A stretch of 64,000 nucleotides of DNA, taken from NCBI GenBank assembly GCA_018806915.1, contig JAGKQI010000090.1, forward strand, positions 806,001 through 870,000, read 5' to 3'. Each line of letters opens with the position of its first letter. Position 1 is the first letter of the stretch. The notes beneath the pieces were generated by a model. The model was not told the DNA's origin. It ran no database searches and saw nothing but the letters and a program-made list of their open reading frames with translations. Positions 1-53,121 of this stretch are shown one piece after another. Source of the stretch: Phytophthora colocasiae. Lineage: Eukaryota; Oomycota; Peronosporomycetes; Peronosporales; Peronosporaceae. The position numbers and the translations under genes are program-made.

Positions 1-3000
1 AAAAAGCCGCTTCCTCCGGACGAAGACGTGGTTTTAGTGACGATGGGAGCGCGTGCACTGGTTCCTAGTGACGGCAAGAAGCTGTATCTGCACGACAAGT
101 ATCATCACGCCACAGCTGTCTCTGCTGAGCCCCTAACAACGTTAGGAGGAGTGTTACTCCAAGAACAGGAAGAACATCGACGGGTTCTTCACGTGGATCT
201 CCTGTCTGGAGCCCCCTGTCGCCCGTACTCGGACAACGCGCTGTATACGCCTCCAGACCAGGTAACCAGGTCACTTGCGACTCGTGAGATGTCTGCCAAG
301 GACTCATTCTCCTTTTGCGACCTGAGGATTACGATTGATGAAGACTTACCAGCAACCAGTACACCGATTGAAGAGACTAAGGCTCCAGCTTCTCCTGTGA
401 AAGACATTGCGGATGAGGGCAACCCAGTGATCGAGGAAGATGAAGAGTATGCAGCAGAGGAATGGGCACGGAAGCTATTGGGAAAAGCTAATAGTAATCC
501 AGTGTTGGCTCAGACGCTCAATGCCTTGGCTACGTCTCCTACTAAAGAGAAAGCTGAACGTCCAAAGACCCCATCGCCTACAAAGAAACAGAAGGTAGAA
601 CGGCCTGATTCGACGACTTTAGTGCCCGACGCCCCCACTTCCGAGCTCTCTCGAGCGTCCAAGACGCTTCTCACCCGTTATGGCTACATGGATCCTCATG
701 ATAAACTGCCAACGTCTCCAAGCAACAACCAGAAGACTCACGACAAGCGGAAACGTCCGAAAACAGTGGAGCTGATCGCTAAATCAATTGAAACTGAGGT
801 GAACGATCCCTTCAAGGCTCACGAGATCCGATTCCACTTTGCAGCGTATCGAGCATGTAGCCCGGATGCCCAAGTAGAGGGGAGAGGTTATCCAGCCCCT
901 GCCCGAGTGTACTTCACTTTCCAGTTCTACAATTTTCCTCCTACAAGAACTGAGACGCTTCGTCTTAGCAAAGCCTTTGACAATGGAGCAGGAGGCGAGA
1001 TCCAAACATTCCTGCTGATGAGAGATACTTCAGCTAACAAGCCTTCGTTGGCGATTCAATTTGACGTGGACACTACAGCGACGAAAAACTCTGTGGAGAC
1101 TCGACGCTTCGCAGAGTATTTGAAGTGGAACAATTTGTACGTGGATGTGTGGGACGCAGACAGTCTTTTCCAGCTTGGAACGTTTGCAGTTCCTCTTCAT
1201 GAATTGCTTCGACAAGGGGAAAGTGTAAAAAAGTTCCAAGCTGAAGTGGAGATAGCTCCACCATTAGGAGGGATGACAAGTGACGACGACAGTGAGGTCT
1301 GCACGGTTCCTAGCCTGAAAAGTGGAGACGATCGTTTAAATATCGGAAGAGTCCAGCTACTGATGAGCAGCTACGGTCTGAAAGGTGAACATTTCATTGA
1401 TCAGCACTGTTCGAACCAAAATGTGGCTGAAATTCCTATAGATCCTGATCTTCGAAGGCCTAAGCACCGTGTTCATGCTCGTCCACTGGTAGAAACCAAC
1501 GCTGAACTCTATCGTCTGCTCTCACAAGAAGGTTTCTATGGAGAACGCATTACGAAAGATCTTCAAGAGCGGAGGAAATCACAACGTCGTCAAGTTCAAG
1601 ATTTTAGCAATGCTACTACGCTTACACCAAAGGAGATAGCGGTCTTGTGTGACCTGTTTGGAGCTCGTAAGGTTGGGGCTGACGTGACTGGGAGGCACTC
1701 AACGCGTATCCGATGTGATCTGGAAGGGAAAACTGGTTTACTAGCGCTGCTGTCGTTGCCAACACCACAAACGGTGACTGTTCCATCTGACACTGCTGTA
1801 AAGCCTGTCGAAACGAAACCTTCAGTATCAGAACCTGTTAAACCTCTTGAGCAAAAGCAGGTGGAAGAAGCTACTGTAGATCAAGCACAGAGGTTAAAGC
1901 GTGTGCTGGCGCTTGCTACGGAGAACCACGTCGCACTTACGGATGCGTTTACTTTGTTTGACTTGGATAAAGATGGTTTCCTGTCTCGAGAGGAATTTAT
2001 CAAGGCTTTGCGGTCACTCGGGAAAGTGTTTGACGATCTCTCGGACGACGATTTAAGGCTTCTCGCTGATCTACTGGACACGAATAAAGACGGGAAGATC
2101 GAGTACCGTGAGTTCCGTCAATTTGTCAAGAAACCTACGAGAATGTCAAAATCTGAATGGCGAGACCACACCAAACGTATTGTGGCACGTGCAGTGGAGA
2201 AAGGGATCCGTGTCCACCATGTTTTTGCTGAGCTTGACTGCTCCGGAGATGGAAAGCTTTCGTATGAAGAGTTTGAGCGCGGTTTAAACCAGCTTGGGAT
2301 ATCCACAGGTGACAAGGAAGATGTCCGAGAGCTGATAACCGAGTTGGATAAAGATCACGACGGATTGATCTCGTATACGGAATTCTTGGAGTCTCTTGGT
2401 CTCTCGATAGAAGAGAACAAGCAGGAGGTGGTGCAAGAGACGGTCAAGGACATTACAGAAGATGTTCGCAAGATTCTAAGCCGCTTGATGAAGAAAGGGA
2501 TCACATTTGTGGACGTTTTCAAGCATTTCGACACGGATCGCAACGGAACTTTATCCGTAGAGGAGTTTACATCCGCTCTGAACCAGTTGCTGCAACTTGA
2601 TAAGGATTCGGACAACGTATTGAAGAAATTCGAGCGAGAGGCGGTGGAAATGTACGTCAAGAGGATCAAGTCCGATGGAGATATGAAGATTGAGTACCGT
2701 GAGTTTTTAACCGCTTGTGGGGTAACTGATAAAGAGATACAATACGAAGAAGCGCAATTCCAACATGCCAATCGAGATCAAGCAAAACGGAAGCTGATCA
2801 AGCTCATCGTTCGTGCCTGTGCCACAGGACTGACTATTCGCGACGTGTTTGAGCAGTTCGATTCGAACTCGGATGGGAATATTTCTATTGCTGAGTTTCA
2901 AGTAACCATGGAGAAGCTCTTCTTAGGCCAAGGGATGACAGCAGAAGATGCTGGCCTTGTTGCCGCTCGGTTTGATACTAATGGAGATGGAATGGTCTCA

Positions 3001-6000
3001 CAACGTGAGTTCCACGAGTTTGGCACTAATCTCCAAAAGAAGCAGCAATACTTGTCCTCAATCTTTACTCCGCATTTGGATAAGCTGTCGGAAATGGACC
3101 AGTCAAAGAAGTGGAAGTCTTTTTGCCAGGAAGAACTTGGGTTATCTTCTGAGAAGCTCAGTGAAGTGCTGTCATTGATAGCGTTCCTTGGCTTTGTGGA
3201 TGAGAATGACGATGTAAATGTCCAAGAATTGTGCGTACTGTGTAAGACAGTAAAGGCTGTGAAAGCACCAGGGAAGGACGTCGCAGTGGAGCGATTGCGA
3301 ACACTACTGGAAAAGGCCAAAGAACAAGGAGTCGACTTGAAAAAGAGCTTCGCTCACTTTGATGCCAATGGAGATGGGGAAATCACCCGTGCTGAGCTGA
3401 AACGTGGTTTGACAGAGCTTGGTTGCTTCACAGACATGAAGGAGGAGGAATTTGACGCTTTATTGGAGAAACTGGATGAAGATGGCAGTGGGAAAATCGA
3501 CTTTAGCGAATTTCGTGCGCTAATAAACGACGGAGAAAAGTGTATTGACATCGATAAAGACGAACTGCTAGGAAAATTGAAAGCACTGATGGAAAAGGCC
3601 GTCGAAAAAGGAGTTTCTATTGACGCTTGCTTTGCGCACTTCGACAAGGATGGGGACGGGAACATCAAAAAGGAGGAGTTCGTGAGAGGCATGACAGAGT
3701 TGGGATTTTCGGCTGACAAAGCGGTGATCGATGGAGTGATTAAACTTCTTGATCAGAATGAAAGCGGAACGATTTCGCTTTCAGAGTTCAAGCAACTCTT
3801 CCCAGTGACTCCTTATCCTGAACCAACTGAGGAGAAGGTTGAATCTAATACGTCTGGAGCTTCATCGGCTAAAACTATGGAGGATAAGCTACAGAAGCTT
3901 CTGCTGAGTGCAGAGGCGAGTGGCGTTGATGTGAAGCAGTGCTTTGCGCATTTTGATACTGACAATAGCGGAGTGATCACGAAAGACGAGTTCGTTGCAG
4001 GTATAAAGCAACTTCCTGGGTTTGAGAATCTACTCGATGAAGAAACGCTAGCGATTGTCCAGAAGCTCGATAAGGATGGAAGCGGAAGTGTGTCGTTACA
4101 AGAGTTTGAGGCCTTTTTGAGACCTTCAACCACTGTTTCTACTGAGAAAACTGAACATCAAGCGGAAAATGCCACTCGGGACAAAGTCGACACTACAGCA
4201 GTTATTGAGGCTAGTGAAGCTCCTGAAGTTGCTCCTGATCCACCGAAAGGCCCTGAAATGTTAGACAAAGAATTCCAAGCTGGAGATGGCGATGGATCGG
4301 CTCCTCCAATGGTAGCTCCAGATGCATCCGAAGTGAGCGAACAGCCGAAAGAAAAGGTATCCAAACCAGTACGTTCGTCGTCTTTTGGTGAAGGTGCAAG
4401 CCCTGGGACAGAAGCAGCTCCATTTCGTCGTACGAAGACGGATCCCAAAGTTGTGGGAACTGAGATGATGAAGGAAAAGACCCCATCTGACAAACTGAAG
4501 GTACCGGGGAAAGCGTCGTTTGCTGCTGTGAGAGCTGCTAAGAGGATGGAAATGACTGCTAATCCAACGGATACCTCTCCAGCATCTAATTGTCCATTGT
4601 CGAAAGAAGCGGCGGACGGATTGTCAAAGCTGAAGAAGCTGCTCGAGACGGCGTCGACACAGGGTGTACCAGTTCAAAAGTCTTTCAGCCACTTCGACAA
4701 GGAAGCCAAGGGGGTTGTTTCATACGATGACTTTGTCACTGGACTACGGGAACTTGGCCCCGATTTCGTTAAACTTTCTGACGAAGACATCATCGCAATG
4801 GCCAGGTCGTTGGACTGCAAGCAGCAAAATGCGCTTCGCGTGGAGGACTTCGTCTCCTTTTTGTCCACGCCTGCACCGGTAAATAAGCCTTCGGAGGAGG
4901 CCTTGAAAGTTGAGAATCAGGCTGCAAATACGCCGGCCGATAAATCAGAAGTTCCAGCGACAGCAACCAAGCGCCCACCACCTCTTCGTCGCTCAGGTTC
5001 ATCTACAATGCCAGTGAAGAAGCCTCTAAAACCAACGACTGGCCCACAAAGCGCTCGAGTGGTCGCAGATACACCTTCAACCCCATTAGCTGTTCAGGAT
5101 AAACCATGGAAGATGAAGCCCGCAGAACCGTTGAAACCAGCAGATGCAGTTGAAAGCGCAGGAAATACATCAAGACTTGAGCCACCGTTAAAGGAAACTA
5201 ATACTGTCGCCTCGGCCCCTCTTGAAGCCACGCCCACAGACCACCAGAAGCAGGACGCTGGAGCAAGTCAGGACTGCAACTACACATTCAGCAGCAATCC
5301 TGAGATCCGCGCTGTCGAGCTGAAGCTGCGTCAAACCGCTCTGGATGCGTACAAGCGTGGGGTTTTGCCGCTACGCGTGGTCTCGAAGTTCTTAGAGGAT
5401 GCTGATGACCGCCGAGGTCGAATATCTGGGACTACTGGTCGCAGTCGGAAAAAGCGAAGCGAATTGCTTCGAGTTGAGTTCCTTCAGGTGTTGATGGAGT
5501 TGGGTTTCACGTTACTTTCCGACCGGGACGATGATGAAGGCGTTGGTGGAGGAATGCCCAAGCCTGTAACGAAGATGAACGACCACCTGTATGCGCGCCA
5601 GCTTGAACGTCTGTCGCGATATCGGCAGCACATTAAAAGTGACGATTCCAAAGCGCACAAGCAGCTTGTTCGTGCAGTAGCCAAGACGAAGAAGCGGCAC
5701 AGCAACAACCAGCAAGCCGAAGACAGTCTCCGTCAATTTGAGGAGGAGAAGAGCCAGCTGCTGCGTGTGTTGTCTTACTACCGCGATGGCCACAAGAAGT
5801 CGCTGGTGTACTCACTGCTTCGTCAGCAAGTGACCATCTCTCTCACTTTGTTTCCGTCCTTTGGTGATCTCTTGTTCTTTGAGCTGCCATTTACGAACCC
5901 GTACAACCACAACGACCGCTTCCGAATCGAGCTGCTGTTGCCTTCATCCCGAGAGATTGCAGTTGTCTTGGATCTTGAAGTCGTGCGCAGCAGCGAGGAG

Positions 6001-7182
6001 TGGGCGTTCTATCGTGAAAACTTGCCACTTGCTTACGGCTTCCTCACGCCAAATACGCAAATCGAAGACGAGATGATCGACGATCATGACGAAGTCGTGG
6101 TGGAAACTCGCGACCAGCTCAATATCCCGATGCGTCTGCGTTGGCTCGACACCAGTAACAGATTTACGAAAGCACGTGGGAAGGAGCCGGAAAAGTCGAA
6201 GATTCCAGTCTCGGTAGTGATCAAGAGCTGCTCACACGGACATACAGTGGCGCTCTTCAACATGGAGCTGCGACCGGAGCCGTTCGTCTGCCACCGGGTG
6301 TTGCGCTTCTCACACCCTGCGTCGTCCATTTGGCGCTGGAAACTGCGATATCCTCGTGGTAAGTTCGTCGTATGTATGGATCCTAGTGTGGCCATGGAGC
6401 TGCTGCGCAACGGTGAAGAAGACGTTAACAACAGCGGCCTCGTGGGCTTCAAGTGTCGTGTGGGAGAATATCCAGCACTCGAGACGTTCTTCGTGGTGCT
6501 GTACGACGACAAGTTCTATGCCCGGGTGTTTGAAGTCTGGCAGATCCGCATCCAGTCCAAGCTGCGAGTGGATGTACATGCAGTTCTGGGCCAAAGCGTA
6601 CGGCACGAACTCGTGATCAAGGGTGATGGAGCGTCTTCGAGTCGAGAAGGAGACGCTAAGCGCCGCGTCATGTGCTTCACACCAATGCAGCAACGTGATC
6701 TTGTCCACTTCCGCCCAGCTCAAGTGTTTGCACTTGTTCCTCAAGCCTTCAACCGCATCGAATTTGCTTTCTGTGCAGTTGAAGGTGGGGCCACGCAGAT
6801 GGTCGTCCTAGTGAACCTCGTAGACGCCGAGACGTACGAGCTCGTAGGTGCCTGGAGTATCCACGTGACGCTCGCGCTGCCTGTCATCACTAAGACGTAC
6901 GAGCTTCGTCTGCCTTTGGGTCGTGCCGCGCAGAAGAAGATCTCATACTCGAACCCGTGGGATCAGCCGCAGACCATCATACTTCGTTCAAGCGCTCCGA
7001 AGCTGCTCGTCCCACGCGAATCTGTGCTGCAGCTGCCCAGCAATGGCCAGACTTTCCTGCGACTGGCGTTCGCTGCTCGCAATCACTTGGCAACAGCCTC
7101 AGAAGACATCTACCTGTTCATCAACGACAAGCGTACCGACCAGAACGAGGAATGCTTGCTGTTCCAGGTCACGTACGAGTAG
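1..7182 (+). CDS. NPHP4: Nephrocystin-4-like protein with an embedded EF-hand array (5' partial)
   Basis: The frame is open from base 1 and there is no start context, so the gene begins upstream; about 2,393 residues are visible. Residues near 265-470 and the last 450 residues resemble nephrocystin-4, a ciliary transition-zone scaffold: near the C terminus are the motifs KKISYSNPW, then LLVPRESVLQL and IYLFINDKRTDQNEE, a typical NPHP4 ending. Between them, residues about 645-1620 carry roughly 14 canonical EF-hand loops (for example DLDKDGFLSREEF, DANGDGEITRAEL, DKDGDGNIKKEEF) plus three degenerate ones (near 2670, 3200 and 4820 in DNA), mostly as pairs. The linkers at 4100-5280 are rich in Pro, Ala, Thr and Glu and look disordered. 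Animal NPHP4 is about 1,400 aa and has no EF hands in family knowledge. A role as a calcium-responsive flagellar base protein of zoospores is inference. No intron is seen in the 7.2 kb. Confidence 0.8.
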   Translation, partial: KKPLPPDEDVVLVTMGARALVPSDGKKLYLHDKYHHATAVSAEPLTTLGGVLLQEQEEHRRVLHVDLLSGAPCRPYSDNALYTPPDQVTRSLATREMSAKDSFSFCDLRITIDEDLPATSTPIEETKAPASPVKDIADEGNPVIEEDEEYAAEEWARKLLGKANSNPVLAQTLNALATSPTKEKAERPKTPSPTKKQKVERPDSTTLVPDAPTSELSRASKTLLTRYGYMDPHDKLPTSPSNNQKTHDKRKRPKTVELIAKSIETEVNDPFKAHEIRFHFAAYRACSPDAQVEGRGYPAPARVYFTFQFYNFPPTRTETLRLSKAFDNGAGGEIQTFLLMRDTSANKPSLAIQFDVDTTATKNSVETRRFAEYLKWNNLYVDVWDADSLFQLGTFAVPLHELLRQGESVKKFQAEVEIAPPLGGMTSDDDSEVCTVPSLKSGDDRLNIGRVQLLMSSYGLKGEHFIDQHCSNQNVAEIPIDPDLRRPKHRVHARPLVETNAELYRLLSQEGFYGERITKDLQERRKSQRRQVQDFSNATTLTPKEIAVLCDLFGARKVGADVTGRHSTRIRCDLEGKTGLLALLSLPTPQTVTVPSDTAVKPVETKPSVSEPVKPLEQKQVEEATVDQAQRLKRVLALATENHVALTDAFTLFDLDKDGFLSREEFIKALRSLGKVFDDLSDDDLRLLADLLDTNKDGKIEYREFRQFVKKPTRMSKSEWRDHTKRIVARAVEKGIRVHHVFAELDCSGDGKLSYEEFERGLNQLGISTGDKEDVRELITELDKDHDGLISYTEFLESLGLSIEENKQEVVQETVKDITEDVRKILSRLMKKGITFVDVFKHFDTDRNGTLSVEEFTSALNQLLQLDKDSDNVLKKFEREAVEMYVKRIKSDGDMKIEYREFLTACGVTDKEIQYEEAQFQHANRDQAKRKLIKLIVRACATGLTIRDVFEQFDSNSDGNISIAEFQVTMEKLFLGQGMTAEDAGLVAARFDTNGDGMVSQREFHEFGTNLQKKQQYLSSIFTPHLDKLSEMDQSKKWKSFCQEELGLSSEKLSEVLSLIAFLGFVDENDDVNVQELCVLCKTVKAVKAPGKDVAVERLRTLLEKAKEQGVDLKKSFAHFDANGDGEITRAELKRGLTELGCFTDMKEEEFDALLEKLDEDGSGKIDFSEFRALINDGEKCIDIDKDELLGKLKALMEKAVEKGVSIDACFAHFDKDGDGNIKKEEFVRGMTELGFSADKAVIDGVIKLLDQNESGTISLSEFKQLFPVTPYPEPTEEKVESNTSGASSAKTMEDKLQKLLLSAEASGVDVKQCFAHFDTDNSGVITKDEFVAGIKQLPGFENLLDEETLAIVQKLDKDGSGSVSLQEFEAFLRPSTTVSTEKTEHQAENATRDKVDTTAVIEASEAPEVAPDPPKGPEMLDKEFQAGDGDGSAPPMVAPDASEVSEQPKEKVSKPVRSSSFGEGASPGTEAAPFRRTKTDPKVVGTEMMKEKTPSDKLKVPGKASFAAVRAAKRMEMTANPTDTSPASNCPLSKEAADGLSKLKKLLETASTQGVPVQKSFSHFDKEAKGVVSYDDFVTGLRELGPDFVKLSDEDIIAMARSLDCKQQNALRVEDFVSFLSTPAPVNKPSEEALKVENQAANTPADKSEVPATATKRPPPLRRSGSSTMPVKKPLKPTTGPQSARVVADTPSTPLAVQDKPWKMKPAEPLKPADAVESAGNTSRLEPPLKETNTVASAPLEATPTDHQKQDAGASQDCNYTFSSNPEIRAVELKLRQTALDAYKRGVLPLRVVSKFLEDADDRRGRISGTTGRSRKKRSELLRVEFLQVLMELGFTLLSDRDDDEGVGGGMPKPVTKMNDHLYARQLERLSRYRQHIKSDDSKAHKQLVRAVAKTKKRHSNNQQAEDSLRQFEEEKSQLLRVLSYYRDGHKKSLVYSLLRQQVTISLTLFPSFGDLLFFELPFTNPYNHNDRFRIELLLPSSREIAVVLDLEVVRSSEEWAFYRENLPLAYGFLTPNTQIEDEMIDDHDEVVVETRDQLNIPMRLRWLDTSNRFTKARGKEPEKSKIPVSVVIKSCSHGHTVALFNMELRPEPFVCHRVLRFSHPASSIWRWKLRYPRGKFVVCMDPSVAMELLRNGEEDVNNSGLVGFKCRVGEYPALETFFVVLYDDKFYARVFEVWQIRIQSKLRVDVHAVLGQSVRHELVIKGDGASSSREGDAKRRVMCFTPMQQRDLVHFRPAQVFALVPQAFNRIEFAFCAVEGGATQMVVLVNLVDAETYELVGAWSIHVTLALPVITKTYELRLPLGRAAQKKISYSNPWDQPQTIILRSSAPKLLVPRESVLQLPSNGQTFLRLAFAARNHLATASEDIYLFINDKRTDQNEECLLFQVTYE

Positions 7183-9803: not shown

Positions 9804-11103
9804 TCAATCTACTCGTGGACGCTTACTGTGTGTCAGGTACCGAGGGTTCTCCTGTGAAGAAGACTGCGACATTGATGGAGTCTGGCTACTCGAGACGCTG
9901 CCACTGCCACTACTGACAAGCAATATCGTTAGGTGATGTCTGAACGCACACGTCGACGCTAATAAGCACGTACCCGTTGGGGAAGAGTGTGACTTCCTCC
10001 TCACTGCGCGCCTGTGATGACGGCAAGAACGTCGTCACCGTGGACAGCGTCATCTCGATGGAGAACTTGGCCATCGACGTCGACTCCGCCGCAAACAGCA
10101 CCGGACTATGACAATTATGCATGTCAAAAACAGTAACACGCAATTCACTACACTCTCAAACTCACCTTCCGCTTGTACTGAAGTAGAACGACACCTCCAG
10201 TACGTCACTCGCCTTGCAAAACGCCAGCAACGCCTACACAATATCGCCATCAGCCTTTTTCCTCCGTCCATATCCAAATCCCTTACCCACCTTAATCTCT
10301 TTAATGCAAAAGATCAGCTGTGACGTCTCCATGTTGTCTGTTGATGGATGCAGAATGTACTCGTTGAACTCTGCGCTCTCCACGGCCGTCTCCGTCTGCA
10401 ACTGAGCTTTACTGTCTGTGATACTGGAGAAGTAGCTCTCGAATTTCACGTGTGTTGGCGTGCAGGTGACGCTAACCTCACTACTGTGGTGGATATGCGC
10501 CAGTAATGAACTCAAATGATGTTGCCTTGTCTTCCAGCGATTGGGACTCTCGCCTTTGTCGAACACGGCGCGCATGATCTGGCATGTCGTCACCTTCATG
10601 TGGTGTGTCTTAGTGATGTCAAAGTCACATCGCAGTCTCCAGCGCAGCTCCATACAGTCCAAGTCTACTTCGTCTACGTCACTACTCTGCGAAATGTCCT
10701 CCTGGCTCGCATTTGCTGGTGGTAAGGCCTCTTTGTCCACCAAAAGAGCCAATTGAACACTTTGCACGTGTTTGAGCGTGCGGAAAACGTTGCAGCATGG
10801 TCTTGAGAAGACCTTGCATTTAATAAATGGCGTCCGTCCATTGAATCTCGCCCTCAGCGTCTCTACAGACGTGATATCGATGCCACCGAGCGTAATACTG
10901 CTGTCTTGAGACTCGGAGAAGAACGTCCTATCCAAAACCACCTGCCCTGAAGCCGAATGCGCATCATTGAGAGCACGAAGCGTGAGTTTACGTGCGCCTG
11001 GGTCGCATTCAATAGAGATCTCCTTCCCAACTTGAGCCAAGCACTGCAGCGCCGCCACGAACACCTTGAGCGCTTCCTCCGCGATCTCCAGTCGCACTTC
11101 CAT
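9804..11103 (-). CDS. RAD9: RAD9, subunit of the 9-1-1 DNA damage checkpoint clamp
   Basis: Four exons on the minus strand: 11103-10291, 10233-10166, 10105-9974 and 9912-9804, with GT-AG introns of 57, 60 and 61 bp and matching phases, giving 373 aa. RAD9 pairs with RAD1 and HUS1 in a PCNA-like ring loaded at damaged DNA that activates the ATR kinase. The start chosen (MEVRLEIAEEALKVF) aligns with the short N terminus of known RAD9; an in-frame ATG at 11145 would add 14 residues. Family features are two PCNA-like domains, RALNDAHSASGQVVLDRTFF early, FNEYILHP in the middle, and after intron 1 the LLAFCKASD...VSFYFSTSGSPVLFAAE block typical of Rad9. The C-terminal tail (SGSGSVSSSQTPSMSQSSSQ) is Ser-rich, as in RAD9 tails that are phosphorylated, and ends in a basic patch. 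Confidence 0.85.
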
Positions 11104-11248
11104 CTCAAAAGTGTATTTGACCATCACTGCATTCCGCATTATCATTTTTGTAATTGTTTACTTTTATGAGTGATATATTCGTAAAAAGCAGGGGAATTTT
11201 GAACAAAAGACCATCACTCTGCATTCCGCACTCCCTATCAGGAAGACC
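11104..11248. promoter_or_regulatory. Divergent RAD9/UFL1 promoter with a repeated motif
   Basis: Only 145 bp separate the RAD9 and UFL1 start codons. A near-repeat lies in it twice in the same orientation: GACCATCACTGCATTCCGCA at 11119-11138 and the same word with CT inserted after CACT at 11209-11230. The second copy contains TCACTCT (11214-11220), which fits the oomycete initiator and lies about 30 bp before the UFL1 ATG. The first copy may serve the opposite gene or be a shared factor site; this is inference. Confidence 0.5.
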
Positions 11249-13699
11249 ATGGACGAGATCGCGTTGCTGCAGCAGCAACTCGCCGCCGTTCAGCAGCAGG
11301 AAGCAGCGCTCAAGCTCTCGGACCACAACGTCATCGATCTTCTTCTCAAGCTCCAGCAGCTCGGCAAGCTCCAGGTGATCCACACGCGCACGGGGAAGCA
11401 GTTTTTGACGCCTCTTCAGGTCCAGAGGGAGATCGCGGACTACGTGGCACTCCATGGCGGACGCTTGAGTCTCACAGAACTGGAGAAACTTATCGATGTG
11501 GATCGTACTCATGTGGAGAAACAAACAGCGGCGCTCTGTCGCGGTAACAGAGGCCACAAGGACATGTATCACGTTGTGAATAACGGAGAGGAACTGCTTA
11601 CGAGCTGGTATCTGGATGGTATTATGGAGGACACTAATGTGTTGTTACAGGATAGCGGTACAACGTCTATTGGAGAGTTGGCCCAGCAGTTCGGCTTCGC
11701 TGTGGACTACATGCGCGACGTGGTGCGCACAAGGCTTGGCAGTATTTTAAAGGCCAGAGAACGAGACAACGTGCTGTACACGAACTCGTACGTGACAGCG
11801 CAGAAATCAAGGCTCCGAGGAGTCTTTGCGGCTGTGACTAGGCCTGTGTTCGTGCCTGATGTGCTCAGGAGTTTCGGCTTTGATGAAGCGGTGGCTAATG
11901 AGGCTCTAGCAGAGTTGTTGCAGACGAAGGTGCTGATGGGAACGTTGCGCGGACGTGAATATGTGCCTTATGTGTTTATGGCAGCACAACGGGAGAGTAT
12001 GTACTCGTTTTTCCAGCAGAATGGATACTTGGAACACGCGCGAGCACGAGAACTCCAGGTGTCCAGGCCCTACGACTTTTTGAAGAAGCGTTTTCCGGAT
12101 GCAGTACCACTACAGGAGAGCGTCGTGAGTCGTGCACTGCAGCTCCAGCTTGAAGGAGCGGTAGAGGCTGCGGTAAATGACAACACGTTTGTGGATGTAC
12201 GTTCGTTGTTGCCAAGTGCGTTGCCTGTGGTGGATGTGGGCTTGCTGCTAGCGATGTCACCGACGCTTGAGAAGGCTGGGCATGTATCCAAGGCATACCA
12301 AATTGCCGAAAGCTATGCTGTCAGCTCCGGTTTCTTCGCTTCATGCTTGGAGAAATTTAGTGAAGATGCTAATGCCAAGGCTGCCCGTGCTGCTGCCCAG
12401 CAAAAGAACACTGGTGCTAATGCTAACGCTCGTGAAAGCAGACAAGAGGTGGATGAAGGCGACAATTCGGATGACGAAGACTTCGGCAATAAACGAGGTA
12501 AGAAGGGCAAACGTGGTAAGGCCGGAAGCAAACGCGACCAGGAAGAAACCGGAGGACGGAGCGGGAAGTCTGGAAAGGGAAAGAAGGGCAAACGTGGTTC
12601 TAAGCGTGGTGGGGATGCAGACGATGACGCTGCGAGTCGATCAACACCGGCTCAAGTTTCGATCGTACCTTCTCCTGAGGAAGCGATTGAGCTGCTGATC
12701 CGATGGTTTCCCGCAGTTGAAGAACTCCAGGGCGATGATGATTTTATGAGTGGAATGGTATCATATCTGGAATCGAAGATAGATGAGGTGTATGCGGCAG
12801 CGCTGACGAAGGCTCTATCTAGTATTTTACGCGGAGATGCTGCCTCGTTGCGTGAGCTGCGCAAGACGTTTGAAGATCGATTTGACGATCTTTTCACTAA
12901 GTTACTCGTTTTGGAGAAGGGCTTTAACAAACTGTCGATGCACGTGGATGCCAAGGATGCTGCTGGTATGGAGCAGCTTGCACTTGTGGAAGTTCACTTG
13001 CTTGAGTCTTCTGCTGTGGAGCTTGCAGCGCTGGTTACAAGCTTTATGGCGGAAAGCAATAGCCTTGAGCTAGAAGGCGTGCCTCTTTTGTCGTCTCCCA
13101 GTTTAAATGAAGAAGAGAAGGACGGAGCCACTGTTGATCCTGTAACTTCGCTGAGTGATGAGAACAAAAAGGTGCTGGAGTCGAGTCTTCCGCAATCCAC
13201 TGCAAATATCCTAGTGCGGTTATGGACACTTGCCACAGCTGGCCGTCGCTCATTGAGCGATTTCATGGTTCACATCCCAGTACTGGCCGAAGCTATCAGC
13301 ATGCCACTTCGAAAATTGGACCGTAAAAAGGAGCGCCAAATTATCTTCGGTTATCGACAGGCAGTGCTTGCGGAACTAGACACCAACACATCGATGGCGA
13401 TCGAGAGCAACCAGCAATCTGCTTTGATTGCAGCATTGATTTTGGAACTTTTCTTCCAACAGCTCACTGGTCTCCCGGCAAGCTTCCCGTGCGATACCGT
13501 GTCCTACGGTGGAATAGTGTTGAGCGCATTCCGCGACATTGTGCCGCAGAAGGCGATGTCGATCCTTCAGGAGTTTTTAGATTTGACGAGCCTACTTTTC
13601 GGTGGTGAAGACACTGAGGAGCAGACGGATAGGTGGAGTGAGAGTCTGAATGCTGCGCGCACTTTGGTACTTTTGAAAGATCTGAGCGGGCTAGAGTGA
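11249..13699 (+). CDS. UFL1: UFL1, E3 UFM1-protein ligase
   Basis: An intronless 816-aa protein, close to the roughly 790 aa of animal UFL1. UFL1 transfers the ubiquitin-like UFM1 to targets such as ribosomal protein RPL26 at the ER, working with DDRGK1 and CDK5RAP3. The N terminus shows the expected helical/winged-helix pattern: DHNVIDLLLKLQQLGKLQVI, then TGKQFLTPLQVQREI, GGRLSLTELEKLIDVD and the KSRLRGVFAAVTRPVFV block, all at positions matching the family. A low-complexity Lys/Gly-rich insert (about residues 405-470, repeats of KKGKRG) separates the N-terminal part from the C-terminal domain (from about residue 475), which includes LVRLWTLATAGRRSLSDF. It shares a divergent promoter with RAD9 and ends 163 bp from the convergent START-FYVE-GAF gene. 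Confidence 0.85.
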   Translation: MDEIALLQQQLAAVQQQEAALKLSDHNVIDLLLKLQQLGKLQVIHTRTGKQFLTPLQVQREIADYVALHGGRLSLTELEKLIDVDRTHVEKQTAALCRGNRGHKDMYHVVNNGEELLTSWYLDGIMEDTNVLLQDSGTTSIGELAQQFGFAVDYMRDVVRTRLGSILKARERDNVLYTNSYVTAQKSRLRGVFAAVTRPVFVPDVLRSFGFDEAVANEALAELLQTKVLMGTLRGREYVPYVFMAAQRESMYSFFQQNGYLEHARARELQVSRPYDFLKKRFPDAVPLQESVVSRALQLQLEGAVEAAVNDNTFVDVRSLLPSALPVVDVGLLLAMSPTLEKAGHVSKAYQIAESYAVSSGFFASCLEKFSEDANAKAARAAAQQKNTGANANARESRQEVDEGDNSDDEDFGNKRGKKGKRGKAGSKRDQEETGGRSGKSGKGKKGKRGSKRGGDADDDAASRSTPAQVSIVPSPEEAIELLIRWFPAVEELQGDDDFMSGMVSYLESKIDEVYAAALTKALSSILRGDAASLRELRKTFEDRFDDLFTKLLVLEKGFNKLSMHVDAKDAAGMEQLALVEVHLLESSAVELAALVTSFMAESNSLELEGVPLLSSPSLNEEEKDGATVDPVTSLSDENKKVLESSLPQSTANILVRLWTLATAGRRSLSDFMVHIPVLAEAISMPLRKLDRKKERQIIFGYRQAVLAELDTNTSMAIESNQQSALIAALILELFFQQLTGLPASFPCDTVSYGGIVLSAFRDIVPQKAMSILQEFLDLTSLLFGGEDTEEQTDRWSESLNAARTLVLLKDLSGLE

Positions 13700-13862
13700 G
13701 CACAATGAATTACTACTCGGGTGTGCAAAACTGCGAGTCTGTGGTTGTTTGGAAAGCTGAAATGTACGTGCTTTATGCATTTTTGATCTTACGTTGGTTG
13801 TCTTCTCCACGTGGTCGTGGTTCATTTTGTACTTGTTTTATAGTAGTTTGATCTTCGGTGGC

Positions 13863-16322
13863 TCAGACTTCTGCGGGGCTTTCGCGCATTGCTCGCTGCT
13901 CAGCAGCTCGTTGAACGACACGTGAAGCAGTGCTGGCCAGACTGCTCATAGCAGCATACTGCGATCGCGTGAGGTCACGAGCATGTTGGTCGGCGCAGCA
14001 CACAGAACCAATGACTGTCTTGCCATCAGAGCCCATTAGTGGGAAACCGCAGTAGAAGTTGATCCCCATCTTCCGGACACTTGACATGGCGCTGAAGCGT
14101 ATATCGGCCTGGACATGGCGGGACACGAGCGGATTGGAGTCGAGAATGGTCTGAGCGCAGAAACCCTGTTCTCTCGGGTACGACTGACCGCCAGCCACTG
14201 CCGGGTGTGTGGAAGCCAACACGTGAAGCTGGGCCTTGTCAACGACGGTGATCATACTCACAGCGCAGCTGAGTTCCTTCGAAGCTAGCGAGCAGATGAT
14301 GCCAAGTTCAGGGACGTCTCCAAGCTCATTCAATTGTTGTTCGCGGATGAGTTGCAGTCGCTTGAACTCATTGGACGGGATTGGCGGTATGACAGCTTCC
14401 AACGGGTCATCAGGGAACTCCATCTGATAACTCCTTGCGTCTGCATTGGCAAGAGGGTAGTCGTCCTCCCAACGCGGAGTATCGCCCCACATCTGTTTAA
14501 GGCGTTCGACATCGTCGACTTCTTCGCTCTCGGTGTCTTCTCCTGCTTCAGCATCGTCAACTTCTTCATCGTGTACACCAAGCAGAGGTAGACCATTTTT
14601 GGTTACACCTGCAGATGCACTACGGATTCTAGCAGCGCTTGACCGTCTCCGCGCGCGTTCCTCGTCGACAATATCTTTCATGACACTCAATACGCTGGCT
14701 TTTCGGCTCCGTTGGGCTGCACCGCCTGCCGTCGCGTCTGCGAGAGTTTCCAGCAGCAGGTCATTGAGAGAGGCCGGCCGTGTTTTGAGTGTGGGCCTGG
14801 TTGCTCTAACACCACGTAGACTACCGCCTGGAGTGCTGTTAGCTCGAGACATTGGAGAGTGCGAGTCCGAGATGACCCGTGCTGGTCGAAGGTCTTCCTC
14901 AGTCGCGGCAGTGTATCGAGCTTGATCTACACGGACAAGACAGCGTTCGCAAACTCTCACTTGTTCGATCTGTGGACGGGCATCACCTCGTGCTCGATGC
15001 TCCCGCTCTTGAGCATGAGCGCATTTCTCACAGACAAGGAAGCCACAGAGACAACACAAACGTTTCCTCGTGCGTTTGAAAAACTTGGAGAATGAACGAC
15101 GGCAGCAAGCACAACGTGGGACATTGGCCACCGTTTCCAGAGGGAGACGTGTGCTGTTGATGATCACCTGCATTCCAAGACGACGACGACGCACTACTAA
15201 GAGGAAGCGATGGCAACTGGCAGCAAGACGGAGCAGCCAGAGGCGCGCTATGCGTCGTTCGTGACCGGCACGCTTGAATGCATCATGGGCGTCAGGAGGC
15301 AAATATTCACCATGGAAAACCACGCGAGTAGCACGCCCACTGGGGTCTTCTTCGAAAGAGTAGTTGATGACGACATTCGGGACGTGCTGCGATCGTGACG
15401 GTGGAGGCGACGGAGCGTTATCCAGTACAACACTCGAGCGAGCAACGGACACTAGAGTTCTAGTGAAAGCTGGTGGAGGGGTGGCCCCTATAGCGATCGC
15501 TGTTGTAGATGCTGTTCTCCTCGCCGACTGTTCTTCTTTTGCTCGGTGTCGAGGGTGCAAGAGCTCCAAGAAGCACCACGACTCGTTCTTGGAGAAGACG
15601 TTGCCACTCTCGAAAGTTGCAGTTTTGACAGACAATTCTCTCTGTTCGAATGCTCTCGCCGGGTTTCCAGCTCCACGTTGAATCTTGATCGTCCGTAAAA
15701 GCTCCCCCTCTACGAACTCGCGGCGGTAAATGCAGCGCATCATATCGCGGAAGATGTCAGTGGAGGCGATACGAAAGACAAGGCGCAATTCCTGTACGCT
15801 GCACGGCAGCACCCCCTCAGCTAGAACGGCAAAGCCTTTGGGCCCCCATCGCGTCTGATGTCGGTGATCTCGGACTGTGAGGCGAGTAAAGAGCTTCATG
15901 GCATCGCTGTTAGCGTATCCTCGCGGGAGCTTCTTTCGCTTCCATACACTCACATGCTTGTCACTGAGACTCGCCGCTGCCAATTCGAGATCAAGTTCGC
16001 CCCAGTTCACGCCAGAAGCAGCAGCAGCTCCCAATTCATGCAACCGCTTGTCGCTTAATCGAGCTGATTCTATCATGGATTCGACTGCCGGTGGCCGTCG
16101 ACGCAGAGAACTCGGGTGATCTCCGTATCTGTCCCAAGACGGTTCTTCGCTACGTTGGCTGTTGTAGTCGTACGTGGCGCCGCTCTCTTCGCTTTCGTAG
16201 CTGTAGCTTGCGTTCAGCATGGCAACCGAAGCGGAGCTAGCTCCGTTCACCGCCATCGATGCACCTAAGTCCTCGTGTACCTGCTGTCTCCGTGGTGTCC
16301 CGAAGTTCCGGGGTGCCGGCAT
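13863..16322 (-). CDS. START-FYVE-GAF domain protein
   Basis: An 819-aa protein of a type expanded in oomycetes. Residues about 130-395 look like a START-like lipid-binding region (FTRLTVRDHRHQTRWGPKGF, AVLAEGVLPCSVQEL). Residues about 402-465 are a FYVE-type zinc finger with four CxxC pairs (CACC, CCLC, CEKC, CERC); the usual RRHHCR motif reads RKRLCCLCG, so the ligand-adjacent histidines typical for PI3P binding are absent. Residues about 650-800 are a GAF domain (FKRLQLIREQQLNELGDVPE, GFCAQTIL, FYCGFPLMGSDGKTVIGSVC). The likely role is membrane-lipid sensing on endosomal membranes coupled to a small-molecule sensor, but no ligand can be named. An acidic stretch precedes the GAF domain. A possible donor (GGTAAGTACG) just upstream of the ATG suggests an intron in the 5' UTR. 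Confidence 0.8.
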   Translation of the reverse strand: MPAPRNFGTPRRQQVHEDLGASMAVNGASSASVAMLNASYSYESEESGATYDYNSQRSEEPSWDRYGDHPSSLRRRPPAVESMIESARLSDKRLHELGAAAASGVNWGELDLELAAASLSDKHVSVWKRKKLPRGYANSDAMKLFTRLTVRDHRHQTRWGPKGFAVLAEGVLPCSVQELRLVFRIASTDIFRDMMRCIYRREFVEGELLRTIKIQRGAGNPARAFEQRELSVKTATFESGNVFSKNESWCFLELLHPRHRAKEEQSARRTASTTAIAIGATPPPAFTRTLVSVARSSVVLDNAPSPPPSRSQHVPNVVINYSFEEDPSGRATRVVFHGEYLPPDAHDAFKRAGHERRIARLWLLRLAASCHRFLLVVRRRRLGMQVIINSTRLPLETVANVPRCACCRRSFSKFFKRTRKRLCCLCGFLVCEKCAHAQEREHRARGDARPQIEQVRVCERCLVRVDQARYTAATEEDLRPARVISDSHSPMSRANSTPGGSLRGVRATRPTLKTRPASLNDLLLETLADATAGGAAQRSRKASVLSVMKDIVDEERARRRSSAARIRSASAGVTKNGLPLLGVHDEEVDDAEAGEDTESEEVDDVERLKQMWGDTPRWEDDYPLANADARSYQMEFPDDPLEAVIPPIPSNEFKRLQLIREQQLNELGDVPELGIICSLASKELSCAVSMITVVDKAQLHVLASTHPAVAGGQSYPREQGFCAQTILDSNPLVSRHVQADIRFSAMSSVRKMGINFYCGFPLMGSDGKTVIGSVCCADQHARDLTRSQYAAMSSLASTASRVVQRAAEQRAMRESPAEV

Positions 16323-16501
16323 ATCGACGTGACCAATGCCGACCTGTTCGTCCTCCGACCTCGTACTTACCAGCTGAAAGTTGATAAGTGTCTCCAGCTT
16401 CTGGGGACTTTGAGAGATGACGGCACCAAACGCACCAAACGCCCCGAGTCTTCGCGGGAGCGGGCTCAGGATTTGTGTCCACGACGCTCCGAATGTAACA
16501 C

Positions 16502-16542
16502 GACAAGATAAAGCGACTGGACTCCAGTCGCTTTATCTTGTC
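16502..16542. repeat. Perfect 20-bp palindrome with 1-bp centre
   Basis: GACAAGATAAAGCGACTGGA at 16502-16521 is followed by one C and then by its exact reverse complement at 16523-16542. It would fold into a perfect hairpin. Confidence 0.9.
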
Positions 16543-16699
16543 TGGAGGCATTGCCCAGTTCCTGCACCTTGTTGCTCCAGTGCGTTGAGTCAGATGGTCC
16601 GCATAAGGATAGCTCTGCGGGATGGGGATCATAGCTTTCTTTGGCTTTACCATTGGAGTTTTCGGGCTGGTCGAGATCTGATCGTCCGTACATGAGGGG

Positions 16700-17305
16700 T
16701 ACACCGATCGACAGAATGCAACGACCACTTTCCCGCAGGTGCAAAGTCTGTTCGGCGCGTGTAGACTGGTTATGTGAGAGCGAATTAATATCGATTTTGG
16801 TAAAAGATAGAGAGCAGCTGTATTTTGCACTAAAAATTGCACTAGTGACGGTTTAATGGATTCCCAGGCTGAAATGGCACGCTTTATCGTAGCCAAGCGC
16901 TCTCCTTTCGCCGTCGTAGCAGTAGCTGTTGCTCTTGCGTAGCTTTGCGTTGGCTTAGCCCCTCTATAGCTTAAAAGGACACGTCGTTTTTCTTGTATTG
17001 TGTAGTGCATGCGGCGTTGTTTGGCTGGCGCGTACACCTCGTCAAGGAGGCCTGTGTGTGGCAACCTCCTTTGCTTCCTGCAATACTGTCGCGGGTGGTG
17101 GGGGCTGCGAGGACTCCTCGTCCGCTTCCTCTATTTTATCGAGTGGCTGGTGGAGACCTCCGTTTTATCGAGTGGCTGGTGGAGTTTTATTTTAGCGATT
17201 GAACGCTGCATCGGGCAATTTGATTGGTTGATAACAAAATGTGCACACAATTTTATATCACAAGCGCCCTTTTTATATGGACGCTGCATTCTGTCGATCG
17301 GTGTA
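16700..17305. repeat. Inverted repeat pair, possible MITE ends
   Basis: A 21-bp word at 17285-17305 (TGCATTCTGTCGATCGG and four more bases) recurs as its exact reverse complement at 16700-16720, with looser similarity continuing outward on both sides. The 606-bp span could be a non-autonomous element, but no target duplication was recognised. Confidence 0.45.
17134..17184. repeat. Two-copy tandem repeat
   Basis: A 22-bp word beginning TTTTATCGAGTGGCTGG occurs at 17134-17155 and 17163-17184, a 29-bp period. Confidence 0.8.
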
Positions 17306-17951
17306 TCCCTCCAATTTGAAGACCAAATGCAAAGTCCGAAGGTGTCATTCTCGAGGGCCTCAATGCCCGTTCGTCGAATATATTCTTCGAGAGCTGATTG
17401 AGGCGGGGACAAAGCAGGTGTATGTCAGCTTGTTCACAAACTTGCAGCTGTTGCAGTCGAAGTGCTGTCGCTGCTTCGCTTTCAAGAGTCTGCTCGCACG
17501 CTGGCGAGAATGTATGGTGTCCAACGTATGAAGAGCGGCGAACGATGCCATCAGAATGCAGCGACTACAAGACAGCGGAAGATTTCTCGTCGTCACCTCT
17601 GCTTCGGAAGCAGCAGTGTCTGCAGATCGAAATAACAGCGACTAGATCGATCGAGGCGAACGGCGATGTTCGGCTAGTGCAGATGGTCTCAAGTGGCCGT
17701 GCACGAACACATGATACCGTACGTGTACGGCGCGAAAGGGTTTTTCATGGGCAGCAACAAGAATGCAACTTCGACATCTTCATCATTGGATCTACGTACA
17801 TCTCGACGTATTGGAGACGTAGGGCTGCTTTAGTATGTTCTGACATCCATCTCTCCATGGTGCTGAGCCTTCAACTTCGGTTTCAGCTCCTTCGTATTTT
17901 CGTACCATGCGACCGGCCAAAGCTCGAGAAAGCTCTTTCTAGTGTGAGCTT

Positions 17952-20900
17952 ATGGCGCTGCCTCGGGCCAAAAAGCGCTCTGGCACCGTCTTCTCTCGCG
18001 ATGAAATTGGCGTCGAGCAGTTGCAATCACTCAAGGAGAAGTTCGCGGATGGAGACTTGACTGAGAAGGAGTTCGTGAGCCTCTTTCGCGAGATCGTCGA
18101 CGCTTCGCTCAGTGAGACTCAACTGACAGAGCTGTACGACTCCCCCGTTCTTTGATTCTTGACGTTGTCGTGACTTGACCTTTTGATTCTGTTGTAGATT
18201 CCAGAAAATCGATGCCAATTCGGATGGAACAGTGGACTGGGACGAACTGACCAATGTGCGGTGCAAGCTGATCCAGAGCTTATATACTTAGTCTTCGTCT
18301 AACTCTTGACTTTCGACAGTACATGTTCCTTAGTGGAAGTGGGAGCGATGAATATACAGGAGACGACGGGAACTGCTGCTATGAGACGGCGTTTCCTGAA
18401 AAATACCCGGGTGATATGAGGAATAGCAACGGGTCTGGGCCAGCCACTCCAACCGAGATAATGGGAAATGCAGGAGGAGGTGGTGGATCTCTCGGGCTCG
18501 GCCTGCTTCCACATCACAAAGACGTCATCACTCGCACTGTACGCTTAGAACGACCAAGCGTGTACCTCACAACCAGCAAGGATGGGAGTGTGCGAACTTG
18601 GAGTGCGAATTCTCTAGCTCCCCAGCAGGTCTTAGCGTCAGGGCGAGACTGGCTAACGGACTGTTGCGTCATGAAGCGCTCGAACCGTCTTGCCGTGTCG
18701 TCCATGAACCGAACATTGAGCTTCTACGATCTCAACACTGGTCAACTCATTGGTGATCTCATCGATTACTCCCGCCGACAGTGTATCCCGCTATGCCTCG
18801 CTTACGTTGAAAAGCCGTCGGACGATCGTGAAGCAATAGTAGTTGGAGACGACACCGGTGGCATATCGGTACTTACGTGTTCAGATCAATGGCTCGCCTG
18901 CGATGGTCGCTCACCTCCTCCTGGATCCACTGCTACAACATCAAACACTGTTACTGGTAGTAGCATTGGTGCAAGCAGCGCAAATCCAGGTCCTAGCAAC
19001 GCATCAGGACAAACAGGAGTTCCATCAGGGTCTTCAACAGTGATAGGAAGCGCAGGGTCTGCAAATGCAAGTCAAACGAATGTAGCCACACCAAGTAGCC
19101 CAAGTACAATTGGTACTGGTGGTGGAAATCCTGCAGGCAGCGCAGTTCTTGAAGCTCAAGGGTTTTCCTCGCGTGTCAAATTCCAGAAACACACAGACTG
19201 GATCACTCGAGTCAAGTGGGTTCACGATATGCGAGCAGTAGTGGCCACGTCGTTGGATGCCACCGTGTCGATTCTAGATGTGGACAGACTGGTGGTAAAG
19301 TTCGAGTACACTCGGCACCGAAAGGGTGTGTTCGACCTGGCGTGGTGTGCCAGTACTCGACTCATTGCAAGCTGTGGAATGGAGCGAGATATCCACATTT
19401 GGAACCCTTACAGCTCTCAGCGAGCTGTCGCTACACTCAAGGGCCATACAAGTTCGGTGTTGCATCTCGTAAGCGATGACGATAATTTCCAGATTGTGTC
19501 GGCTGCTGCAGACAACACTGTCAAGGTTTGGGACGTAAGAAACCACCGTTGTCTACAGACATTCGTGGTAGATCGACATCGAGGTAGCTCAGTTACCACC
19601 GGGGGTTCTGTATCAGCAGCATCGTTGTATGCTGGGACTGGGGCGAATTTAAGCGCCGAAAACCGCGTGTCTGCGCTACTTTTTGACGGCAAACAACCAT
19701 GCCTCATGACTGCAACGACACAACTCACTCGATGGGCATTTAAATCTGCAGAAGGAGCAGGATCACAAGGAGCTGAGGACGACGAGAGTCCTGGTTTGAC
19801 CACTATGAGGAAGCATAAACTACGTGGAGCCCCGGTGGAACGTCCTATACGGATAGCTTGCTACAACAACGTTTTCCACCAGGTAGTGACAGCAGCGATG
19901 GATGCCGAGTCCGCGATCAAGACGTGGAGTGCGGAGACTGGAGACGAGATCTCAAGCTTCAATCACGCACATGGCGCCAACCCCGTGACTAGTATTGCGT
20001 TTGACCATGCAGGGCGACGCCTACTTACCGGTTCACACGACGGCGAACAGCTCAAGATGTGGAATTTCAGCAATGGAGCACTTGTGAAGCAATTCCACAA
20101 GAAAGAACCTCCTATTGTGAGTTCCTTGTTATTCACAAGTACACCAGCGACTGCTGGAACGGTAGCAAGTACTGCAGCTCTACCAGATGAACCTGAAGCT
20201 GGTGGTGAAACTACAGCTATGATCAGTGCGCCTCGGAAGCGGAAGACACGGGACATTATGCTCCTGCCAGCATCTTTCGGAATGGATAACGAAGGTCGAC
20301 GCGGTAACGCTGCATTGATGGCGCAGACAGAACTGCCAAGTCCAACTCGCGTGCGTCTTCAGCATGGACAAGACCACCCCACACCTGTTCCTCCAACAGG
20401 TACAACGTGTGAAGCTACACAAGCTCCTTCCAGCCTTAGAGGCATAAATTCCCGGCTTCGACCTCGCGTTGGAGCTTCAAGAACACCTCGAGTCTCTGAA
20501 ACTTCTCGTTACCGACAACACGAAGTTACCAGCATCCTGGACATCGAACGCAACCTGCGTGTGGGTATGGGCGACTTTATCTGCCAGAGATTTGTGTGCT
20601 CTGTAGGCTGGGATCGTCAGCTTTTCGTCTGGGCGGACAAGAACGACGAGTCCGAGGCACTTCCAGTACATATTCTTCCGCCTGATAGCGACGGTGATGA
20701 CGATGATAACGATTCCGACGAGACAGATCATGGCAGACGTGGTAGACGCCGGCGTAGACGACAACACCATACGATGGACGTCCTTGCTTTGGCCTATTTG
20801 CCACCTGCATACGTGGCCACCGCTGGCTTGGACGGATTAGTGCTGTTGTGGTCTCTCAATTCCGGGGAACTGGTAGCTCCACTTCATCAGAAATCGGGGC

Positions 20901-37424: not shown

Positions 37425-37562
37425 CGGTCGATACACCTCGATTTTCGGCTGGGGCTTGAAGGGTTAACTACCGTCTTACCGCGCATCAGCCGCTCTAGGC
37501 GCTGTATCGGAGGGAGACCTCGAAATGAGAAGAACGCGGGGCTGGCAAAGGAACAAAATATA

Positions 37563-51888: not shown

Positions 51889-52972
51889 TTAGTGGCGACC
51901 TTCCTCAACCGCCGACACGTGACTCATTTTCCCCTCAATCGCACTCACCTTGTCCTCGCCGTGCAGCATCCTGAGCTCGCGCTCCCACTCCTCCGTACGG
52001 AATTCATTCTCCAACTTGGCCATCACAACCGAAGCCAAGCAGTTGCCCATTACATTAGTGAGCGTACGAAGCATATCCATGATCCAATCCACCCCAAGAA
52101 TCAGAGCAACCGGCCAAGACGGAATGTCGAACTGATCCAGAGTCGAGGCAAGAACAAGCCGATCGGACACCAGCCACGCCCTTGGATGAAATCATAAGCA
52201 TGAGTACCATGACGATCTGTTCCCCAACCGACTTGTGAACACCTGCAGCTTGAGCGCAAAAGACAGATGCGAGCGAGAGGTAGAGTGTCGAACCGTCCAA
52301 GTTGAACGAATAGCCGAAGGGAACAACAAAGCCCGAAATGTGCGTGGCCACACCATACTTCTCCAAAGCCTCAAAGACCTTAGGCAGAGCAGCTTCTGAC
52401 GTTGCAGTAGTGTAGGCAATGATCAGCGGCTCCTTCATGGCGATGAGGAACTCGATCGGGTTGATCTTAAACATAAGACAGACAGCACCAAATACTACGA
52501 GGATGAAGATGGCGATGGTCACGTACACGGTACCAACCAGAGCTCCCAAGCTTCCAAGTGCTGACAGACCGTTCGATCCGATAGCATCAGCAATGGCAAA
52601 GCACACACCGACAGGGGCCGTCCAGATGATAATATCCACGAACTTGAACATCATCTCCAAGATAGCACGGGCGAAGTCGATGATCAGACGCTTGTGCTCT
52701 TCTCTTAGCTTCGAAGTGGCTACACCAGTGAGTACAGCAGCAACCAACACTTGAAGCAGCTCCGACGACCCAGAACCTCCCATCATCTCGCCCCACGTCT
52801 TGGGGGTCAAGTGTTCGATCCAAATCTCAAACGTGAAGGTGGTCGAGGACTCGTCGTCGTAGGCGTCACCCTCCGTAACGCCGACTTTGCCTGGTTTGGC
52901 GATGTTGACAGCTAGAAGCCCAATGATCAACGCGACGGTGGTGATCACTTCGAAGTAGATGATCGATTTGAT
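51889..52972 (-). pseudogene. Symporter copy 3, 3' portion (interrupted)
   Basis: This is the downstream part of a symporter gene whose 5' part lies at 62291-62591. It reads from KSIIYFEVITTVALIIGLLA through VPFGYSFNLDGSTLY to a tail ending SHVSAVEEGRH at 51889. Besides the retrotransposon insertion it has its own frameshift near 52165: an 8-bp loss relative to copy 1 in the SKGVAGVRSA region of hairpin 2. Nearly identical to copy 1 elsewhere. Confidence 0.85.
52957..52972. repeat. 16-bp target-site duplication, 3' side of the LINE
   Basis: AGATGATCGATTTGAT here equals 62291-62306. The uninterrupted gene (copy 1, about 23736-23751 on the opposite strand) has this sequence once. Confidence 0.92.
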
Positions 52973-53121
52973 TTTTTTTTTTTTGTTTGGTAAGGTATAT
53001 TGTGTTACTGTTTCCATCTCTGGAAGTGAACTCTAATTACCATCCCCGTCCGGCTGCAATGTCCGTACGAGTCCTCCTCATCTCATCTACTACACGCTTC
53101 ACATCCCCGTTACTCCTCCCT

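Follow-up and report, generated by a model that had tools for sequence, protein, structure and literature searches.

The gene at the left edge of the stretch of Phytophthora colocasiae DNA analysed here (the window: 64,000 nucleotides, C57:806001-870000, in a genome of 92.5 Mb and 105 contigs) is, as its sequence supports, an oomycete NPHP4 (nephrocystin-4) with an inserted EF-hand array. Both ends of the encoded protein are homologous to NPHP4, the array lies between them, proteins of this kind occur across the oomycetes, and the calcium ligands of the array are strongly conserved. To the further proposal that these tandem EF pairs, set between the C2-like and the immunoglobulin (Ig)-like parts, would make the protein a calcium-responsive flagellar gate, we give an even chance.

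The gene and its three parts

The open reading frame (ORF) at 1-7182 (+) runs through the left edge of the window with no stop or frame break, and reading on in the genome places its upstream ATG at C57:804480, 1,521 bases before the window start. The protein has 2,900 residues, the first codon of the window being residue 508 with 507 codons upstream of it. Of the N-terminal NPHP4 part described by a first-pass annotation of the window, the first ~1,860 bases of the window hold only the second half. The C-terminal part matches a single locus in the genome. Two relatives, P0001 and P0002 (87% and 89% identity), are collinear with the frame through both junctions, with no internal gap of at least 20 residues, which supports an intronless gene, as that annotation had held. 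The parts of the gene, in window coordinates, are as follows.

1..1857 (+): NPHP4 N-terminal part, residues 508-1126; residues 1-507 lie at C57:804480-806000, outside the window
814..1254 (+): C2-like region, residues 779-925; top-scoring N-terminal segment (84.7 bits, independent E-value 1e-25), corresponding to about 665-820 of stickleback NPHP4 (P0037)
1936..4131 (+): main EF-hand array, residues 1153-1884; EF pairs 1 to 7, in which 13 loops are canonical and one lacks the usual first aspartate
1960..2112 (+): EF pair 1, loops 1960-1995 and 2077-2112
2236..2382 (+): EF pair 2, loops 2236-2271 and 2347-2382
2530..2703 (+): EF pair 3, loop 2530-2565 canonical, loop 2668-2703 without the usual first aspartate
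2860..3009 (+): EF pair 4, loops 2860-2895 and 2974-3009
3361..3510 (+): EF pair 5, loops 3361-3396 and 3475-3510
3643..3786 (+): EF pair 6, loops 3643-3678 and 3751-3786
3955..4104 (+): EF pair 7, loops 3955-3990 and 4069-4104
4132..4602 (+): low-confidence, probably disordered linker, residues 1885-2041; predicted local distance difference test (pLDDT) about 30 nearly throughout
4603..4890 (+): last, degenerate EF pair, residues 2042-2137; first loop canonical in 7 of the 20 rows of the conservation alignment described below
5320..5520 (+): helical, poorly modelled segment, residues 2281-2347; pLDDT 35-67, by eye perhaps like half an EF module
5800..7179 (+): NPHP4 C-terminal part, residues 2441-2900; tandem Ig-like beta-sandwich domains, by profile match and model

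The identity of the two ends was assessed with profiles built from 35 N-terminal and 33 C-terminal oomycete parts, the window's own included; the N-terminal parts of P0025 and P0031 and the C-terminal parts of P0032, P0033, P0034 and P0036 were left out as too short or missing. The search set held 502 sequences, among them P0037, 500 shuffles and a reversed copy. The N-terminal profile matched P0037 with 134 bits (E 1.1e-40; best shuffle E 0.95) and the C-terminal one with 95 bits over residues 981-1282 (E 8.9e-29; best of the 500 shuffles E 0.42), and the reversed copy of P0037 did not attain E 10 against the N-terminal profile. Alignment by hhalign gave P0037 residues 20-819 for the N-terminal part (E 4.9e-30) and 979-1283 for the C-terminal part (E 8.4e-20). 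The two matches lie on P0037 in the same order as in the oomycete protein, bearing out the earlier view that both ends resemble NPHP4; the C-terminal 450 residues, on whose match that view had been staked, do match, with 95 bits. P0037 is an isoform that ends early, and the vertebrate comparison stops short of the last stretch of the protein.

A Pfam scan of both ends gave no match, but P0037, a named NPHP4, likewise went without an NPHP4 model, and hence the missing match is no evidence either way. All 34 homologues from the main search described below carry at least one of PF26015, PF26186, PF26187, PF26189 and PF26190 in precomputed annotation; we take these to be NPHP4 models, PF26186 presumably under the name 'C2-like'. 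The Albugo-type homologue P0030 finds stickleback nephrocystin-4 at E 1.3e-7 among 5.8 billion sequences (48 bits, with 7% of the query aligned).

In an AlphaFold model, the C-terminal 626 residues form a chain of beta-sandwich domains (mean pLDDT 75.8; predicted template modelling score, pTM, 0.59), the NPHP4 part reaching pLDDT of about 80-94 over most of its length, and we assume that its Ig-like domains are of the MSP/ASH type. The 20 best matches of this model in the PDB are chains of the ciliary central apparatus, followed by unrelated Ig-like and cadherin chains, with low template modelling (TM) scores (0.13-0.19 by query length), such as flexible chains would be expected to give. A PDB sequence search with the C-terminal part gave no match.

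Between these ends, Pfam EF-hand_1 recognises 14 stretches (E 1.5e-82), and Pfam, loop lists and model agree on paired helix-loop-helix units with canonical 12-residue loops. Twelve loops satisfy a strict EF-loop pattern, which we take to be that of PROSITE; a 13th, DKDGDGNIKKEE (3643-3678), deviates from it at position 9 only. The loop KSDGDMKIEYRE (2668-2703) lacks the usual first aspartate and DKEAKGVVSYDD (4696-4731) is degenerate. The total of 13 canonical loops plus two or more degenerate ones comes close to the 'about 14 canonical loops' first proposed. By eye, a further stretch, within residues 1550-1600, weakly resembles an EF hand.

The model of the array (mean pLDDT 69.6, pTM 0.39; 599 of 1,046 residues at pLDDT 70-90 and 86 above 90) consists of modules with a leading helix and an EF pair, mostly at pLDDT 70-90; next come a disordered stretch and, last, the degenerate pair. 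How the modules are placed relative to one another is predicted without confidence. The order of N-terminal part, C2-like region and Ig-like C-terminal part is shared with stickleback P0037, and the array takes the position of a stretch between the C2-like region and Ig-like domains of the fish protein. However, that stretch has ~160 residues in the stickleback isoform, compared to ~1,500 between the matched regions in the window protein, and P0037 has neither an EF hand by Pfam nor a strict loop, whereas the window protein has both.

Distribution and conservation across oomycetes

The main homologue search admitted proteins of ~1,600-5,075 residues, largely leaving out NPHP4s of ordinary length and favouring array-bearing proteins; within this range, EF-hand Pfam domains are found on 33 of the 34 homologues. 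Organisms are given for 20 of them, all oomycetes (Phytophthora, Nothophytophthora, Plasmopara, Pythium, Globisporangium, Lagenidium, Aphanomyces and Saprolegnia). Identity to the window protein over the C-terminal part is 94% for two relatives, 78-84% for fully covered Phytophthora proteins and 73% over 19% for P. boehmeriae. The window gene is thus one more member of the oomycete EF-hand NPHP4s: records from P. ramorum (P0007, named 'Nephrocystin-4'), Saprolegnia, Aphanomyces and Pythium have the same architecture with differing numbers of units (6-31), and several homologue records bear the name 'EF-hand domain-containing protein'. We found no description of EF hands in NPHP4 in the open-licence literature, and an account elsewhere is possible; the term 'EF-hand' is absent from the main text of a paper on oomycete flagellar genes (PMC3471859) and of a survey of the transition zone (PMC4092220). 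The earlier statement that no NPHP4 with EF hands is known therefore agrees with the literature searched, but not with database records, as the P. ramorum entry exists.

A second search, with P0030 as query, admitted ~900-2,880 residues, scored the 7,988 candidates sharing most words and returned seven proteins: two Albugo types without EF Pfam domains, four proteins with EF hands, and stickleback NPHP4. The Albugo-type pair, P0030 and P0035 from Albugo laibachii, is 72% identical, and P0035 represents an EF-poor form of oomycete NPHP4 with the same order of parts. A search with a five-row alignment, aimed at NPHP4 of other protists, yielded only the two Albugo-type proteins, probably because low-complexity words swamped it.

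EF units were counted as those scoring above 5 bits with an EF profile made from the strict loops of the same proteins. The window protein has 14, and 22 homologues have 12-15; two have 11 (P0010, P0036), six Saprolegnia and Aphanomyces proteins have 25-31, and four have 6-9, namely P. sojae P0003 (6), P. ramorum P0007 (8), P0009 (8) and Plasmopara P0013 (9, with 3 strict loops). In P0007, residues 1191-1464 comprise three EF-pair modules that score almost alike with the profile (38.3 and 28.3-28.9 bits each), which suggests a recent tandem duplication inside its array. The Albugo-type proteins have one decayed unit each and no canonical loop, that of P0035 appearing in Pfam only below the cut-off and that of P0030 not at all. 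The remnant pair of P0035 best matches the last, degenerate module of the window protein (E 3.8e-16), with pair 5 next (E 6.3e-15), and that of P0030 best matches pair 5; any assignment of the Albugo pair to a single module is of low confidence.

Conservation was examined in 20 rows, comprising the window protein and 19 of the 36 oomycete homologues picked for long arrays (17 were left out), with gaps counted as differences and positions 1, 3, 5 and 12 of 15 loops taken as ligands. Identity to the window protein is 85% at the ligand positions, 60% at other EF positions and 41% in the linkers. Thirteen loop sites are each canonical in 17-20 of the 18-20 ungapped rows; the second loop of EF pair 3 is canonical in none of the 20 rows, with N at its position 1 in 19 of them. 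This conservation across homologues makes the observation of the array stronger than first claimed.

In a tree of the C-terminal part (23 rows; 8 of 20 inner branches well supported; midpoint root, with a very long stickleback branch), the Albugo types group with Phytophthora, Pythium and Lagenidium, apart from Saprolegnia and Aphanomyces (100/100). This favours an array that was already present in the oomycete ancestor and became reduced in Albugo, though the rooting is weak.

Possible roles of the array

A calcium-responsive role is plausible and the reading that we prefer, the evidence for it being the conservation of the calcium ligands. The protein would sit at the flagellar transition zone, as NPHP4 does elsewhere, and a rise of calcium in the zoospore would load its EF pairs; loaded pairs could make the link that joins the NPHP4 halves change in shape or stiffness, or recruit a partner, and the altered link might then tune the ciliary gate or the readiness for flagellar shedding at encystment. 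That array length differs by lineage fits an addition that modifies a conserved scaffold, and not the core of that scaffold. Zoospores lose their flagella on becoming cysts (PMC7718214). Paramecium cells depleted of CEP290, RPGRIP1L or NPHP4 fail to deciliate, for which the authors of that study propose defective calcium influx (PMC7093003). Flagellar and EF-hand genes have been lost in non-flagellate downy mildews, and flagellate Plasmopara halstedii retained more of them (PMC6264045, in passages that do not name NPHP4); P. halstedii is among the species with a homologue here (P0013).

Several points weigh against such a role. The two Albugo-type proteins are without a canonical loop and Albugo makes flagellate zoospores, so the array is not essential to NPHP4 function. 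Arrays are also shorter or decayed in P. sojae, P. ramorum, P0009 and Plasmopara, perhaps partly through gene models. In Paramecium, RPGRIP1L without its EF hands rescued deciliation, for which these are hence dispensable (PMC7093003). According to an expression study of P. infestans (PMC5322657), two of its proteins, with 8 and 10 EF hands, have orthologues also in zoospore-less oomycetes; the relevant passages do not mention nephrocystin. The Albugo proteins, the shorter arrays and the outcome in Paramecium speak against a switch that would be essential.

NPHP4 and an RPGRIP1L-type protein, RPGRIP1L being its usual partner, co-occur in the P. colocasiae genome, the latter assigned by domain match and not by a tree. 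The single RPGRIP1L-type C2 match (PF11618, E 1.5e-36, C84:105795-106217) lies in a frame open for 2,072 codons (C84:105312-111530), which past its C2 domains has EF-like units (EF-hand_7, E 2.2e-14; EF-hand_6, E 1e-11); a scan of its first 1,896 residues found no strict loop. The ORF next to it on the upstream side, L026:2875-4311, has a coiled-coil look and is probably the N-terminal exon of this gene, which gives the following layout.

L026:2875-9999 and L027 (C84:103875-111530): RPGRIP1L-type protein, with a probable coiled coil, C2 domains and a long C-terminal run of EF units

Paramecium RPGRIP1L, a transition-zone protein of the NPHP/RPGRIP1L set, is reported to have C-terminal EF hands in a similar layout (PMC7093003). 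Two members of this set thus bear EF modules, whose calcium ligands are retained in NPHP4 but were not seen in RPGRIP1L. More tentatively, and we would lean against it, oomycetes may have rebuilt this pair of the ciliary gate with EF arrays on both partners, the array of NPHP4 canonical and that of RPGRIP1L not; the transition zone would then be calcium-gated, and the calcium signal of encystment would act directly on the gating or shedding of the flagellum.

The main rival to a calcium-responsive gate, which we rate as a serious possibility though short of an even one, is that the array is mainly a structural spacer or docking rod, in which calcium is bound constitutively for folding and is not sensed. 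With its repeats summed, the sequence of the array best matches EFCAB6, and its best fold matches are chains of ciliary doublet microtubules, from Tetrahymena, Leishmania and T. brucei, at very low TM-scores (0.07-0.10 by query length); as ciliary proteins, these matches also speak for the gate. The wide range of array lengths, from 6 to 31 units, also favours a rod, as does the RPGRIP1L-type protein, whose EF hands, without strict loops in the 1,896 residues scanned, indicate that such modules at this site can be kept without canonical calcium binding. Against a rod, the calcium ligands are the best-conserved class of positions in the array, and 13 sites stay canonical in nearly every ungapped row.

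EFCAB6 and the doublet-microtubule proteins (PDB 7rro, 8g2z and 8v3l) resemble the array as chains of repeated EF pairs, but the similarity of the EFCAB6 type is generic, the best single module reaching E 0.0009, and derivation of the array from EFCAB6 is unsupported. None of these EF-repeat proteins has NPHP4 parts, to our knowledge. Recent capture from another EF gene of the genome is likewise unsupported, as the closest among the matches listed is 28% identical (E 1.3e-12).

It is improbable that the array is a decaying lineage-specific insertion, functional in the oomycete ancestor, now weakly constrained and being lost piecemeal. The single degenerate pair left in the two Albugo-type proteins and the reduced arrays of P. 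sojae, P. ramorum, P0009 and Plasmopara fit such decay, but 13 of 15 aligned loops are canonical in nearly all 20 rows from Phytophthora to Lagenidium, albeit in rows picked for long arrays. That one frame is shared by distinct genes or transcripts, for the EF part and for the NPHP4 ends, is barely credible, given the unbroken frame, the collinearity of the two relatives across both junctions and the 33 of 34 homologues that combine EF hands with NPHP4-type models in a single predicted protein; the same architecture in many genera excludes a fusion artefact, going beyond the first-pass annotation, in which a merge of two neighbours had been called unlikely.

How calcium reaches the machinery that gates or severs the flagellum is a question in most protists, and a gate protein with a conserved, predicted calcium-binding array would allow a direct test in oomycetes. 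A natural comparison on one scaffold is available there between array-rich (Saprolegnia, Aphanomyces), array-medium (Phytophthora, Pythium) and array-poor (Albugo) forms.

Neighbouring sequences in the window

Downstream of the NPHP4 gene, 10234-22033 holds ordinary neighbours: Rad9, a UFL1-type E3 UFM1 ligase, a GAF protein with a weak FYVE match and a WD40 protein. Two copies of ~99% identity lie 5.3 kb apart at 37500-39200 and 42841-44541, the first matching the transposase-like DDE_1 (E 1.8e-6). Sodium:dicarboxylate symporter ORFs are found at 49695-51077 (+) and 52055-53017 (-), the second apparently partial (profile positions 67-337 of 387). An ORF with reverse transcriptase and endonuclease, of the non-LTR (long terminal repeat) retroelement type, occupies 55533-58349 (-) and is adjoined by an ORF of 1,236 amino acids without a Pfam match at 58351-62061 (-).
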